A program made the translations under genes and the position numbers. Positions 322 to 33,499 of a stretch of DNA of 64,000 nt are shown here, piece after piece; within the stretch, counting starts at the first letter, position 1, and each line of letters opens with the position of its first letter. The DNA lies in contig CALFBI010000009.1 of NCBI GenBank assembly GCA_937951675.1, forward strand, positions 1 through 64,000. The letters are read 5' to 3'. The notes under the pieces were generated by a model. It did no database searches and was not told the origin of the DNA. It saw nothing but the letters and a program-made list of their open reading frames with translations. This DNA comes from an uncultured Verrucomicrobiales bacterium (lineage in GTDB: Bacteria; Verrucomicrobiota; Verrucomicrobiia; Verrucomicrobiales; Akkermansiaceae).

Positions 322-508
322 AACAGTCTTATTATAGGAACGAAGGAGTGATATTCGTTTCGGATATCACTTGAGAAGAATTAGACCTTGGAATCTCTCT
401 TTTCTTTAACATCCATCAAGTTATAAAAGATAAAACTGGGATATCACAAGGCTCTTTTTTTATTTAAATTCTCTTAACTTTTCACTTTTCAAAAACAATC
501 AATATTCG
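322..508 (-). repeat. 186/187-bp attI-like repeat, copy 1
   Basis: This copy is about nine-tenths identical by eye to those at 31103-31288 and 33314-33499. Identity begins abruptly at CGAATATT (minus strand) and stops at ...CTGTT; what follows differs in each copy (GGCGAAG here). It contains a hairpin, GTGATATTCG-TTT-CGGATATCAC (348-370), a direct repeat GGATATCAC at 362-370 and 439-447, and TATAAT nine bases before the GTT. The abrupt end at GTT, next to a cassette-like ORF, is what an integron attI site looks like. No integrase gene adjoins it; the neighbour on the other side is the 3' end of hrpB. The 90 bases between the repeat and hrpB hold only a weak GGCTC/GAGCC stem. Confidence 0.75.
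331..336 (-). promoter_or_regulatory. -10 box of attI-like repeat copy 1
   Basis: A perfect TATAAT lies on the minus strand, with its last base six positions before the terminal GTT of the repeat. Transcription would begin about at the GTT core, giving the lipoprotein gene a leader of only about ten bases. No clear -35 hexamer is visible 17 bases upstream. Confidence 0.5.
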
Positions 509-28850: not shown

Positions 28851-29473
28851 TTAGTTTCTTGATGGTTCTAGGTTTTCGAGTTCAGTTTTGATGTTTGATC
28901 GAGCTCGTTTTTCGAACTGCGTAAAGAACTCGGTTGTGTAGATTCGCTGAGAGAGGAAACTCTGTAAAACCGACCTCCTACCAACAACAAAATCTACTTC
29001 CGGGACAGAGATATATTCGCGTCTAATCGCGGATCGATAGAGCTCGTAATCTTCTGGCGGCGACCCAAGGATACTGAGGTCGATATCAATGATTAAGCCC
29101 TCGTCGGACACCCAGATTTAACTAGTTTAGGATCAGTAGCCAAGATCAAGCGCTCTACGTCACCTCCCATAGAGCCTCCAATGAATGAGCCGAGGGAATC
29201 CGCGAAATACTGTGCGCTCTTCGCCTCGTTATGGCTACCTAGTGGTTCATAGACGGCGGCGTGAAACCAAATCGCGAGTTCAACGGTATCATCCCCATCG
29301 GCCGATGCGTCCAGCCAAGAGAGCATCCGATCGATGTGCAACAGGTTGTGGTAACTTCGGTGCACTTCCAGATACCGCTCCTTCAGATCGTCAAAAATGC
29401 CACGAACCCTCTCGTCAGCTAATCCGAGGCGCTTGCACACCTCTGTGAATCGTTGTGCGTTCGCATGATCCAT
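28851..29473 (-). pseudogene. Frameshifted HD-superfamily phosphohydrolase-like protein (COG4339-like)
   Basis: Two frames together give one about 207-residue protein of the family annotated as predicted metal-dependent HD phosphohydrolase. The first part runs from the ATG at 29473 (MDHANAQRF) through HRSYHNLLHI and LAIWFHAAVYEP. The second, in the -1 frame from about 29110, runs through DEGLIIDIDLSILGSPPEDY and IRREYISVPE. The frame change lies close to 29105, and no slippery heptamer is visible. The usual His-Asp pair is His-Ala here, so activity would be lost even without the frameshift. The start is 8 bases after an attC-like core, so it is a cassette gene. Confidence 0.8.
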
Positions 29474-29480
29474 TTTCTTG

Positions 29481-29598
29481 AACGTCAAAGCGATGTCACT
29501 GCTACAGGCGGCTCCAGTCCGACGAAGGGGTTAAAGGTTCTTATATTCATAATAAACTACTCGGCGGTAGCGGATTGCCCAGCAGCATCTTGTTCTGC
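29481..29598. other. attC-like site a
   Basis: Outer cores are AAC at 29481 (GTTCAAG on the minus strand) and GTTCTGC at the right end, preceded by CTT as in the other sites. The inner arms GCTACAGGCGG and GGCGGTAGC pair partly. It separates the HD-family cassette from the remnant upstream. Its right arm GGTAGCGGATTG resembles the arm of site e. Confidence 0.6.
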
Positions 29599-29626
29599 CT
29601 TGTAGGCTATCGACCGCTTGGTGGTC

Positions 29627-29746
29627 TTACTTAACGGCGCGGAAAAGAATGCGTAGCTCCTCCAATCCCCTTGCCCCAAACCAGTCGTGGCTCGCTAGGT
29701 AGGCGACGACTGCTACCGCTAGAGTTGCACCACAAATCCGACCGAC
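29627..29746 (-). pseudogene. Short cassette remnant without start codon
   Basis: A 39-codon open stretch with coding character, including a hydrophobic run (ATLAVAVVAYLA) and a helical end (ARGLEELRILFRAVK). It begins inside the stem of attC-like site b directly after a TGA and has no start codon. It fills the gap between sites a and b, where a full cassette would be expected, so it is probably what is left after a deletion. The product is unknown. Confidence 0.35.
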
Positions 29747-29843
29747 TCAGCGCGCTTTTGATAGTTCTACCACGCTCCCTCCTCCAGTCAAAGCCTCAGA
29801 CCCACCAGCGCGGTCGGATTTGTGGTGCTGCGCATTGTTAGCT
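29727..29843. other. attC-like site b with an 18-bp perfect stem
   Basis: GCACCACAAATCCGACCG (29727-29744) pairs perfectly with its complement at 29811-29828. The outer core on the right is GTTAGCT, which overlaps the stop codon of the 415-aa gene. The opposite outer core is missing: where GTT should be, the minus strand reads AACTCTAGC. The half-site state fits a deletion at the junction with the neighbouring remnant. Confidence 0.65.
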
Positions 29844-31085
29844 CTCTTCAGCTTCTTTCGATCTCCTTGCCGATGTCAAACCAAGAATTCCTCCTGAAGG
29901 AGTTGCTTCATTGTGGGACTTTCCGAGTAGGCGACCAGGTTCGATTGAGAGAACTTCCACTGTTCTCGCCGAAAGCAAAGCCAGAGCATTGCCGGCATTC
30001 TCCAAGTCAACATCCTTTAGATGCGCCATATGATCACGGTATCCTATAAACGCTTTCGCGGTAGACGTCTTGAACCTGTAATCCTCTTCCAGTCTGATCG
30101 TATTGCCATATTGTAGCGCACTGAACCAGCCAAGCCATACCAATGGAGCGAGAAACGGTAGACGAGTGAAGGCGTGATGCCAGTAGTCATCTCCACTCAA
30201 GTCGACCGAGAACGCAACTCCGACCATTGCCAGAATGGTAACGATGAAAACAGTCATCCAACCACGCCGAGGTATTACTAGCTTGTTCGCTCGCTCCTCA
30301 AAAGAGGCCGCGAGACCCACACTCGCCGACCCCGGCAACAAACCCTCGATAGTAGCCCGAATCGACTCTGCCTCGCTAACTAAACCCTCCAACTTCGTCT
30401 TGGCAGTTGAAGCATCATGAGAGAGAGCCTCTGTATCGGCGTTCCTCTGAGTCAACGTTGCTATGGTTGACCCCGCTTCCGTCGCCGCTGTCTCGACGGC
30501 GTCCCGAAACCCTAAAGCTGAAGCTCGAGTTTCTGTTAGCTCAGTTAAGACAGCCTCTAGAACGGTTGCTCTACTATCAAGAGCGTCAAGACGCTCCTCT
30601 CGAATCGCAATCTCTTCCGCGCGGGTTTCTAATGCAGCCGCTTTGGCTTCCAATTCCTTTGTCGCCCTTTCTGCCCGCTCTGCCGCCTCTGCGATATCGC
30701 CAGCGAGAGATGATAGCTGTCGCCCCTCCTCTCCAGTAGATCCCGTAATGAAGAGCGTCAACGATGCACCCAGAAGTTGATTCAGTTGTGTTACAAAATT
30801 TCTAACATGATTGTATTTCTGGGCGACTAGCTGGTTGAGCTGGGCATCAATATTCGGCATAGACGCTAGTGCTGACGCCTTAGCCGCTTCATATCCTGCA
30901 CTGAATCCAGCAGGTGCCCTTACTCGACCAAAGAGTCTGCTAATCGTTCCTACGATGTCATTTACTTCATCAAGAGAAAGATCGGGATAGTGTTGCTCCC
31001 AGAGTTGCGTGTTCTGTTGGGCTGCCTCGTAAACCTCCTCCCATCGAGTGGCTAACGTTTGAATGCGTTCTTGAATATCTGCCAC
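29838..31085 (-). CDS. Cassette-encoded coiled-coil membrane protein
   Basis: A 415-residue protein of unrecognised family. The N-terminal 120 residues are helical. Residues about 125-265 form a long Ala/Glu/Arg coiled coil (AAERAERATKELEAKAAALETRAEEIAIREERLDAL shows the heptads). Two membrane helices follow (WMTVFIVTILAMVGVAFSV about 275, LPFLAPLVWLGWFSAL about 310), then a cytoplasmic tail with EDYRFKTSTAKAFIGYRDHM. This layout recurs in accessory and defence-island proteins, but no function can be assigned. The start is GTG, with an in-frame stop upstream, 18 bases after the GTT of repeat copy 2, so the message would be nearly leaderless. The stop overlaps the attC core. Confidence 0.85.
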   Translation of the reverse strand: MADIQERIQTLATRWEEVYEAAQQNTQLWEQHYPDLSLDEVNDIVGTISRLFGRVRAPAGFSAGYEAAKASALASMPNIDAQLNQLVAQKYNHVRNFVTQLNQLLGASLTLFITGSTGEEGRQLSSLAGDIAEAAERAERATKELEAKAAALETRAEEIAIREERLDALDSRATVLEAVLTELTETRASALGFRDAVETAATEAGSTIATLTQRNADTEALSHDASTAKTKLEGLVSEAESIRATIEGLLPGSASVGLAASFEERANKLVIPRRGWMTVFIVTILAMVGVAFSVDLSGDDYWHHAFTRLPFLAPLVWLGWFSALQYGNTIRLEEDYRFKTSTAKAFIGYRDHMAHLKDVDLENAGNALALLSARTVEVLSIEPGRLLGKSHNEATPSGGILGLTSARRSKEAEES

Positions 31086-31102
31086 GGCGATTTTTTTCGG
31101 CT

Positions 31103-31288
31103 AACAGTCTTATTATAGGAATGAAGGAGTGATATTCGTTTCGGATATCACTTGGGAAGGATTAGACTTTAGAATCTCTCTTTTCTTTAACATGCATCAA
31201 GTTATAAAAGATAAAACCCGGATATCACAAGGCTCTTTTTAATTTAAGATGTCTTAACCTTTCACTTTTCCGAAACAATCAATATTCG
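31103..31288 (-). repeat. 186-bp attI-like repeat, copy 2
   Basis: It matches copies 1 and 3 over the full length with scattered substitutions. Its end on the minus strand is CTGTT, then AGCCGAA. The 7-mer GTTAGCC at this junction matches GTTAGCT at the far end of the next attC-like site at six positions. The 95 bases on its other side, up to attC-like site c, hold no ORF and may be the truncated start of another cassette. Confidence 0.78.
31112..31117 (-). promoter_or_regulatory. -10 box of attI-like repeat copy 2
   Basis: A TATAAT on the minus strand, followed by AAGACTGTT. It would drive the 415-aa cassette gene from within the repeat. A clear -35 is not seen. Confidence 0.5.
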
Positions 31289-31383
31289 AGTTTTTAGCAC
31301 TCTCCTATCACAATCAAACAATCGTTTAAATCAATCCATGTGAGCCCCCCTTATTTAGCGGACCCGAAAAGACTATTGTGAGC

Positions 31384-31515
31384 AACGTTTGAGGTGTGGC
31401 TCCAGATATGGCTAACGCCGAATGACCTGCGGATACCAGATCGGTCACACCGAAGCAAGTAGACCTTCGAAAACTCTCAGCGCGTATCTGGCTGTCCCCC
31501 ACCACCTTGTTCGGC
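31384..31515. other. attC-like site c
   Basis: AAC at 31384 faces GTTCGGC at 31509-31515. Inner arms CCAGATA (31402-31408) and TATCTGG (31485-31491) pair perfectly around a loop of about 76 bases, and CTTGTT precedes the right core as in the other sites. It closes the frameshifted cassette gene that ends at 31519. Confidence 0.6.
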
Positions 31516-31518
31516 AAG

Positions 31519-31949
31519 CTAGTTTGTCCATGTGACCTCGGAAAAATCGTCCCTGTCTTCCAACATTTTTTGCATGGTTTCAGACACTCTCTCTATGGCA
31601 GAGCTTGTGTCCACCTTCCTAAAAAGCTTCTTCATAAAACTTGGCTCGGCAGTGATGAAGGCGGCAAACTCGCAGTTACCTTCCGTCTTCTGATAATAGC
31701 ATTCCCGTCTTCATCAATGTCGTCCACAGGATCACATCCAATCCAGAGCGGGAAATCACTATTCTCGATATAAGCTAACCAACCCCAATCCTCACATAGA
31801 ATATCTTCAGTAGCTACACCATATGCAGGTAGCTCATCCCGAAAATACTCAGCAAGACGCTTACCCCAACACCCGGGGTTAACCGTCTCTTCGTCTTCGT
31901 TCTCGTATTTGGGAAATGACGACGAAGTGAATTCTACGTGGGTTTTCAT
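31519..31949 (-). pseudogene. Frameshifted cassette gene of unknown function
   Basis: The first frame starts at the ATG at 31949, seven bases after the attC core, and encodes MKTHVEFTSSSFPKYENE through DWGWLAYIENSDFPLWIGC. The natural continuation lies in the -1 frame from about 31695: CEFAAFITAEPSFMKKLFRKVD through DDFSEVTWTN, ending at 31519 next to attC-like site c. Joined, they give about 143 residues of a small acidic cytoplasmic protein that resembles an uncharacterised bacterial family. Unshifted, the frame would give 105 residues with a non-native tail. The function is unknown. Confidence 0.75.
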
Positions 31950-31956
31950 TTTACCA

Positions 31957-32070
31957 AACGGCCAAAGTCATCTCACTCCTGACCGGGGGCAAGGCTTCGA
32001 TTGTGGATTAGATGGTATGGCGGATTGAACTCGCGGCGAGGCAGGTGTTGAGAGCTACGCCTTGTTCTGC
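31957..32070. other. attC-like site d
   Basis: The outer cores are AAC at 31957 (minus strand GTTTGGT) and GTTCTGC at 32064-32070, preceded by CGCCTT. The inner arms pair poorly (TCTCACTCCTG against CAGGTGTTGAGA), so the site is less regular. It begins 11 bases after the end of the PEP-CTERM cassette gene. Confidence 0.5.
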
Positions 32071-32080
32071 GTTTTACGGA

Positions 32081-32728
32081 TTAGATCCTACGACGATAAT
32101 TGATTAACGCCACACCTCCTATTCCCATAAGAAATAGTGAGGTAGCTTCAGGTATTACGCTGATTATTATCTGTTCGCCTCCAGCGGTATCGCCATTAGA
32201 ATCAAATAAGACATGCCCATCAACATATCCACTGAAATCGCCATCAATATCCAATATAGTGAAATCATAATTTTGAACTCCGGTAGTAACAGCACCGTCA
32301 TTTTGAGCCATACCTCCAACTAAATTAAAAAAATTATTGCTGTGAGATCCAATACCTCGCAGTTCTAAGCCAGCTCCATTAGAACCTAAATCAACAGAAG
32401 CACCGCTATCTAAAAATGGTAACCCTGAAAAATCATAACTAGCACCTGAAATAACGAGAGATTCAATAACGAGAGGTGTAGATGAGTTATACACTAAAAA
32501 CTCTTCAAAGTTTGATGCTGAGAAAAAAAGCTCACCATTGACTGTGCTTTCAGAAGATAACATAGCGTTTGGATTAAATGTGCTAAAATCAATACTCCCA
32601 TTTCCGTTAATCATCACGCCTCCACTAGATAAAGGAGAAACATATAATGTTAGCGTCGCAGCTTGGCTATGCAGAGAACAAAATGCCGATATAAATATTC
32701 CCATTGATACTTTATTGATCATTTTCAT
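32081..32728 (-). CDS. PEP-CTERM-like secreted protein on an integron cassette
   Basis: A 215-residue protein with a signal peptide (MGIFISAFCSLHSQA), a Ser/Gly/Asn-rich beta domain and a C-terminal sorting signal: VIPEATSLFLMGIGGVALI followed by YRRR. The motif reads PEA where the consensus has PEP. Exosortase/PEP-CTERM proteins are cut and anchored during export, usually in exopolysaccharide-making bacteria. The start lies 25 bases after the core of attC-like site e. The gene is notably AT-richer than its neighbours, which suits a transferred cassette. Confidence 0.82.
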   Translation of the reverse strand: MKMINKVSMGIFISAFCSLHSQAATLTLYVSPLSSGGVMINGNGSIDFSTFNPNAMLSSESTVNGELFFSASNFEEFLVYNSSTPLVIESLVISGASYDFSGLPFLDSGASVDLGSNGAGLELRGIGSHSNNFFNLVGGMAQNDGAVTTGVQNYDFTILDIDGDFSGYVDGHVLFDSNGDTAGGEQIIISVIPEATSLFLMGIGGVALINYRRRI

Positions 32729-32752
32729 TGTTAGTTTGAATTATTTCTGCAG

Positions 32753-32875
32753 AACGTCGAAGTCCACACATCCGCTACCGGGAGCGCGGCTTCGACTGGG
32801 GTTTAGGGTTGTAATTGTCAGTGAAAATTCGACTCATGGCGGGTAGCGGATTGTGGTGCGACGCCTTGTTCTCCG
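32753..32875. other. attC-like site e
   Basis: The best formed of the five. The left arm CCACACATCCGCTACC pairs with GGTAGCGGATTGTGG, and the outer parts are AGAACGTCG on the left and CGACGCCTTGTTCT on the right. The right core GTTCTCC is identical to the 7-mer at the platform/cassette junction at 33316-33310 on the minus strand. The left core gives GTTCTGC, identical to the right core of site d. The 3' end of the 161-aa gene runs into this site. Confidence 0.8.
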
Positions 32876-33303
32876 TTGTTTGTTTCCGGTTGGTCGGAGC
32901 GGATGAAGACGCTGTGATGGTTCTCGCAAAGAATCCAGTTCATCCCTCGATCCACCACGTAATACTCAAATCCATGCATCTCTTCGATGACTCGGATGAT
33001 CCCGCCGCCTGTGGCCTCGGCAATCCAATACTTGCCGTCTTCTTCGGTCGCGAGGAACCAATAATCGGCAGATGGATCGAGGTAGTCCCGCAGCCATTGA
33101 AGCGGATCGTCGGGCTGCTCGGATGTGATCGGATCGCGAAATGACTCCCACAGCCAGATCGACTTCAAATCCCGAGTGCCGTTGCGCAGAAACTTGTCGG
33201 CGATTCGATTCAGGATTCCTTCCCACTTCGTGAGACGCACGAACTCGAAGTCCGAAATCGACTTATCTCGGACTGCTTTCGTGATTGCGTCTCGCAGAGC
33301 CAT
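32818..33303 (-). CDS. Cassette-encoded protein of unknown function
   Basis: A 161-residue soluble protein, rich in Trp and acidic residues (WLWESFRDPITSEQPDDPLQW, ADYWFLATEEDGKYWIAEAT). It recalls small SMI1/KNR4-like or other cassette-borne proteins, but I cannot place it. The last 20 residues (from about GEQGVAPQ) are translated from attC-like site e, a common feature of integron cassette ORFs. The ATG lies 10 bases after the GTT end of repeat copy 3, so it is the first gene of its array and should be transcribed from the platform promoter. Confidence 0.82.
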   Translation of the reverse strand: MALRDAITKAVRDKSISDFEFVRLTKWEGILNRIADKFLRNGTRDLKSIWLWESFRDPITSEQPDDPLQWLRDYLDPSADYWFLATEEDGKYWIAEATGGGIIRVIEEMHGFEYYVVDRGMNWILCENHHSVFIRSDQPETNNGEQGVAPQSATRHESNFH

Positions 33304-33313
33304 TTCTTTGGAG

Positions 33314-33499
33314 AACAGTGTTATTATAGGAATGAAGGCGTGATATTCGTTTCGGATATCACTTAGGAAGGATTAGAATCTAAAATCTCTCTTTCGCTTA
33401 ACATAGATGAAGTTATAAAAGATAAAACCCGGATATCGCAAGGCTCTTTTTAATTTAAGGTCTCTTAACCTTTCACTTTTACAAAACAATCAATATTCG
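33314..33499 (-). repeat. 186-bp attI-like repeat, copy 3
   Basis: Full-length copy; the minus strand ends ACACTGTT then CTCCAAA. The 7-mer GTTCTCC at this junction is identical to the right core of attC-like site e, as predicted if the adjacent cassette was inserted here by an integron integrase. The hairpin GTGATATTCG...CGGATATCAC is intact. The second GGATATC copy has one change (CGC for CAC). Between this repeat and the yqeY start (33500-33685) there is no integrase and no convincing ORF. Confidence 0.8.
33323..33328 (-). promoter_or_regulatory. -10 box of attI-like repeat copy 3
   Basis: A TATAAT on the minus strand, six bases from the terminal GTT. It is placed to transcribe the cassette gene that starts at 33303. 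Confidence 0.5.

Follow-up and report, generated by a model that had tools for sequence, protein, structure and literature searches.

The window (the whole 64,000-nucleotide stretch of DNA analysed, which is the start of contig C9 of genome G000, a 2.05-Mb draft in 28 contigs that is 97% complete) contains a minus-strand gene cluster that is best explained as two integron arrays in tandem. Both begin at a copy of a repeat that the first-pass annotation had called a platform and that, judged by homology, is an attI site with an adjoining promoter region. Taking the genome as a whole, we consider it very likely that these are integrase-less arrays led by six scattered heads, each an attI with a putative promoter (Pc), behind which cassettes were inserted as circles by a past integrase or by one acting in trans, and that the arrays are probably static now.

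Read on the minus strand, the order is platform P3, gene e, attC e, gene d, attC d, gene c, attC c and platform P2; P2 is followed by gene b, attC b, attC a and a broken last gene. The array of platform P1 runs off the contig start. The features are as follows.

33303..33499, minus strand: platform P3, attI and Pc region in the short form, a 197-bp repeat that heads the e-d-c array
33340..33362 (also 31129-31151), minus strand: inverted repeat GTGATATCCG/CGAATATCAC (GTGATAT...ATATCAC), directly upstream of the -10 box
33323..33328, minus strand: -10 box TATAAT of the putative Pc, 6 nt ahead of the crossover GTT
33316-33314, minus strand: crossover GTT of P3; the alignment of platforms stops at ACTGTT and divergence follows
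32818..33303, minus strand: cassette e gene, 161 aa, DUF6756 (Pfam PF20541, E 3.8e-22)
32749..32874, minus strand: attC e, 126 nt, far core GGAGAAC, near core GTTCTGC; independent model E 2.8e-20
32081..32728, minus strand: cassette d gene, 215 aa, PEP-CTERM-type secreted protein, with a weak PEP-CTERM match below cut-off
31953..32070, minus strand: attC d, 118 nt; independent model E 1.9e-11
31632..31949, minus strand: cassette c gene, 105 aa, no family
31380..31515, minus strand: attC c, 136 nt; independent model E 0.0014; aligns with the C53_1 site
31092..31385, minus strand: platform P2, attI and Pc in the long form, starting a few nt from the attC c crossover
31105-31103, minus strand: crossover GTT of P2
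29838..31085, minus strand: cassette b gene, 415 aa, coiled-coil membrane protein
29718..29843, minus strand: attC b, far core AGCTAAC, near core lost
29477..29598, minus strand: attC a, 122 nt, preceded by a cassette without an ORF; independent model E 9.1e-15
28851..29488, minus strand: last cassette gene, two overlapping ORFs of 131 and 86 aa, with no clear attC behind
322..508, minus strand: platform P1, attI and Pc in the short form, downstream of an HrpB-type helicase gene

The cassette d protein has a signal peptide and a C-terminal motif, both read from its sequence, and the last cassette gene, being split into two overlapping frames, appears broken. Site c has GTTGCTC (31386-31380) as its near core, and the GTTAGCC within this site is part of the stem. 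The arms of attC b form a perfect 18-nt inverted repeat (29727-29744/29811-29828).

Complementarity at cassette boundaries is textbook integron biology, and the first-pass annotation had reported it for four cassettes, with scores that we reproduced exactly. The P3 boundary GTTCTCC (33316-33310) matches the far core of site e (32874-32868) at 7/7 positions, as does the near core of site e, GTTCTGC (32755-32749), with the far core of site d (32070-32064). The near core of site d, GTTTGGT (31959-31953), agrees at 5/7 with the far core of site c, GTTCGGC (31515-31509), both mismatches being transitions, and the P2 boundary GTTAGCC (31105-31099) agrees at 6/7 with the far core of site b, GTTAGCT (29843-29837); the boundary of the cassette of site a, which has no ORF, was left unscored. 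Because GTT is fixed by definition, only four variable bases count per link, and the four links match at 13 of 16 (binomial P = 3.8e-6 at equal base frequencies). As the cores resemble one another, the fair control is to re-pair them, and 13/16 is the top score of the 24 possible pairings (approximately 0.04). The matches are thus real, but the claim that four agreements are hard to get by chance was somewhat overstated (about 1 in 24 under re-pairing), and taken alone the four links in the window are modest evidence.

Further links come from arrays elsewhere in the genome and from contig C53 (1-5683), which is binned with another genome (G057). The right end of C9 (L016:9830-9936) overlaps C53 by exactly 107 bp, and C53 agrees with G000, not with G057, in GC content and in attC type; we therefore treat it as a misbinned neighbour of C9 that likely belongs to the organism of the window. 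Its platform had been considered as evidence of a second genus, which was dropped given the exact overlap. G057 itself (C8, C41 and C45) encodes three full-length integron integrases and has a second, different attC family with the core GTCCTAGCATAGCC.

The boundary rule holds in these arrays, which lay outside the view of the first-pass annotation. Across 13 links in G000, 41 of 52 variable bases match (shuffle mean 25.2; 5 of 200,000 shuffles as good), and across 20 links in G000 and C53 the count is 69 of 80 (40.3 when shuffled; 0 of 200,000 as good); both counts take in two decayed-looking terminal links, C20_2 and C18_4 (4/7 and 3/7). Perfect 7/7 matches were found at four consecutive links of C18, at the link at the right end of C9 and at all seven links of C53, and the links of C20 scored 6/7 and 7/7.

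Which sequence the far core pairs with separates a cassette from a hairpin. On a circular cassette, the far core complements the first bases of the cassette that carries it and the near core belongs to the next one, whereas in a static palindrome the two cores would stay complementary to each other. In a set that omits site b and both decayed terminal links, the far core agrees with the start of the cassette to which it belongs at 65 of 68 variable bases, against 39 of 68 for the near core of that site (sign-flip P ~1e-4), a preference that we take for the trace left by recombination at G|TT. The original proposal of site-specific recombination at the repeat's GTT is the best reading of this comparison, of the matches in the other arrays and of independent model calls, and the data support the repeats as integron attC recombination sites in a real cassette array. 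Palindromic intergenic repeats that merely resemble attC would also give stem-loops between same-strand genes, and sites b and c are weak in the models; however, the far core tracks its own cassette start and not its partner in the same repeat, and the sites are absent outside platform-headed arrays, which makes this explanation extremely improbable.

The arrays have the composition of integron cassette arrays, namely cores with GTT, inner arms L'' and L', and complementarity between cassette start and far core. Common to seventeen sites, 118-136 nt long, are the core GTT, an AAGGCG-type spacer and inverted arms (R and L). We searched the window with a sequence-only model built from the 13 sites that lie outside it. 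Of the five sites in the first-pass annotation, this model called four (e, a, d and c), and it had no other hit in the 64 kb; site b was called by neither of our attC models. The first attC model, run on all of G000, returned 11 sites, all of them within platform-headed arrays and none outside. Folding energies were mixed, some sites being strongly stable and several no stabler than shuffles. RNAalifold gave no consensus structure on a MAFFT alignment of the attC sites, as sites of two length classes had their stem arms misaligned in it, and the models were therefore restricted to sequence. An Rfam search returned tRNA only. On the reverse strand of C53, two attC sites are unusually short (1433-1375 and 966-926; 59 and 41 nt), and their core match to their own cassettes is still perfect.

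Seven occurrences of the 197-bp repeat are present in the assembly, two of which are one copy: the ends of contigs C11 and C18 share exactly 108 bp of platform sequence, and the two contigs are therefore probably adjacent. Six platforms remain. They are approximately 190-290 bp long and come in a short form (P1, P3 and C20) and a long form with approximately 100 bp more upstream (P2, C11 and C53). P2 is 89% identical to P3, and 90% and 88% identical to the C53 and C11 copies, respectively, over 240-250 bp. The sequence TTCCTATAATAANACTGTT is exact in 6/6 platforms, and the constant end, ACTG|TT, is followed by cassette-specific divergence. All six platforms stand at the head of an array, and every array found begins at a platform, with the crossover at the identical base.

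The platform core recurs as TTCCTATAATAAAACTGTT in 'Verrucomicrobia bacterium MAG-135' (G253), a genome of the same order as G000, where 263 bp separate it from a divergent integron-integrase gene on JAHDCN010000106.1. The integrase scores 354.7 bits against a cut-off of 265, and the recurrence of the core beside this gene identifies the platform as attI. The MAG-135 integrase (L044:311-1573) carries approximately 110 additional residues ahead of the part that matches the family profile. Integrase-less arrays at multiple loci have elsewhere been attributed in part to insertion at attG sites (PMC12444791), and by analogy the cassettes here could sit at unrelated sites of this type, with the platforms as mere chromosomal repeats. 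This is very unlikely, as the heads form one repeat family in place of unrelated insertion sites, the same platform and crossover base are present at every array, and the core lies next to an integron integrase in another genome.

Within the platform, TATAAT is kept in all heads; there is no convincing -35 box, and a promoter scan found no sigma-70 site at the platform. The inverted repeat is the best conserved block (mean pairwise identity of 0.98), and a second GTGATATCC lies approximately 80 bp further upstream in most platform copies; the inverted repeats are possible operator or integrase-binding sites. Identity is 0.967 over the last 47 columns versus 0.880 upstream (permutation P = 0.004), and the low variation of these 47 nt, which hold the -10 box and the inverted repeat, is as expected if they are functional.

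Outside this organism, the platform is rare in the collections searched. Among 387 genomes of the order, platform DNA was found only in G000, in C53 and as a 47-bp core in G253, apart from two 25-bp matches that we took as chance. The attI core pattern (at most one mismatch) occurred in G000 only, of 117 family genomes. A platform 26-mer had no match in 84,980 GTDB genomes, a search in which records very close to the genome of the window may be missing and C53, which ends inside the 26-mer, is undetectable; a 20-mer had none in IMG/VR. The attI regions that belong to the G057 integrases were considered as platform relatives and bear no resemblance to it. Searches of the family found no second genome of the genus, and so no empty site was seen.

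We inspected the upstream neighbour of each platform and found intI at none of the six.

Platform P1: HrpB-type helicase gene
Platform P3: YqeY gene
Platform on C11: radical-SAM/BATS gene
Platform P2: attC c, without an ORF between
Platform on C20: half an attC and an ORF
Platform on C53: an ORF, its own attC seemingly cut to approximately 16 nt

Three heads thus lie behind chromosomal genes and three inside arrays, which yields tandem arrays with two heads, at three places. Neither ORF ahead of the C20 and C53 platforms has a complete attC of its own. Across G000 (97% complete) no intI was found above the TIGR02249 cut-off, and with it no complete integron; 38 of 97 family genomes encode an integron integrase above the cut-off. 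The tyrosine recombinases of G000 comprise two Xer-like genes and a 99-aa fragment (C10:5436-5735), which was examined as a candidate intI and is an XerC/D-type remnant. With no intI at the heads and none found in the genome, the arrays would be classified as attI-headed CALINs (CALIN, cluster of attC sites lacking an integron integrase).

An ordinary complete integron would account for the same arrays if its intI were in a missing or misbinned contig and the six platforms were duplicates served in trans. As G000 is a draft, in 28 contigs, and one contig, C53, is seemingly binned with another genome, an intI could lie elsewhere, and the many perfectly matching attC cores fit recent activity. 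However, all six upstream neighbours were read and none is intI, so that such a gene would have to lie at a distance from them or next to a seventh head, and we hold this arrangement to be possible but rather doubtful.

In the reading that we prefer, of integrase-less arrays headed by attI, promoterless cassettes of one ORF and one attC were inserted as circles between the G and TT of attI or of the preceding attC, and the sequences show the resulting complementarity between the first bases of a cassette and the far core of the attC that it carries; transcription from Pc would then read the first cassettes. Three heads are within arrays at positions where an attC is expected, and, more tentatively, attI-terminated cassettes may have spread the attI-Pc unit as their last part. 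Those heads that follow chromosomal genes could instead be old integrons from which intI was lost. That the attI-Pc module is itself mobile, with attI-ended cassettes taking a docking site and promoter elsewhere and one genome holding a network of heads that depends on an integrase acting in trans and encoded beside none of them, seems to us unlikely.

The arrays resemble sedentary chromosomal integrons in their attC sites with both R and L arms, crossover at G|TT, circular cassettes and a first cassette directly behind the attI core, and the relative G253 shows the intI-attI layout in full; they differ in having six heads versus one, with intI beside none. They share with CALINs the lack of a nearby intI, but the same attI-Pc module heads the array at every locus here. 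The closest precedents concern displaced attI copies. In Shewanella prophage M16-3, a second, intI-less array starts with its own copy of attI (PMC9892861), as the arrays here do; in that case a complete integron is present and one extra attI copy is reported, whereas G000 has six heads with a promoter region and no intI that we found. In class 1 and 2 integrons, delta-attI cassettes carry a piece of attI of up to 244 nt in place of attC, and IntI1 recombines such units (PMC12901181). This matches the attI in the place of attC within the arrays of C20, C53 and perhaps P2, but those cassettes belong to mobile resistance integrons with intI, and the platforms here also head separate chromosomal arrays. 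In the literature on multiple, orphan or additional attI sites, of which our coverage was partial, we found no many-headed genome with dispersed attI-Pc copies and no intI; apart from the Shewanella precedent, the six copies look new.

Integrase-less arrays are common (PMC12444791; PMC3607928), and their origin is debated between intI loss, rearrangement and insertion at secondary sites. A genome in which all such arrays are led by one attI-promoter module offers direct comparative material for this debate. It also indicates that the label CALIN alone can overlook an attI head. In the usual picture there is one attI per integron (PMC3607928); by contrast, these arrays suggest that attI can multiply apart from the integrase, with its crossover end conserved.
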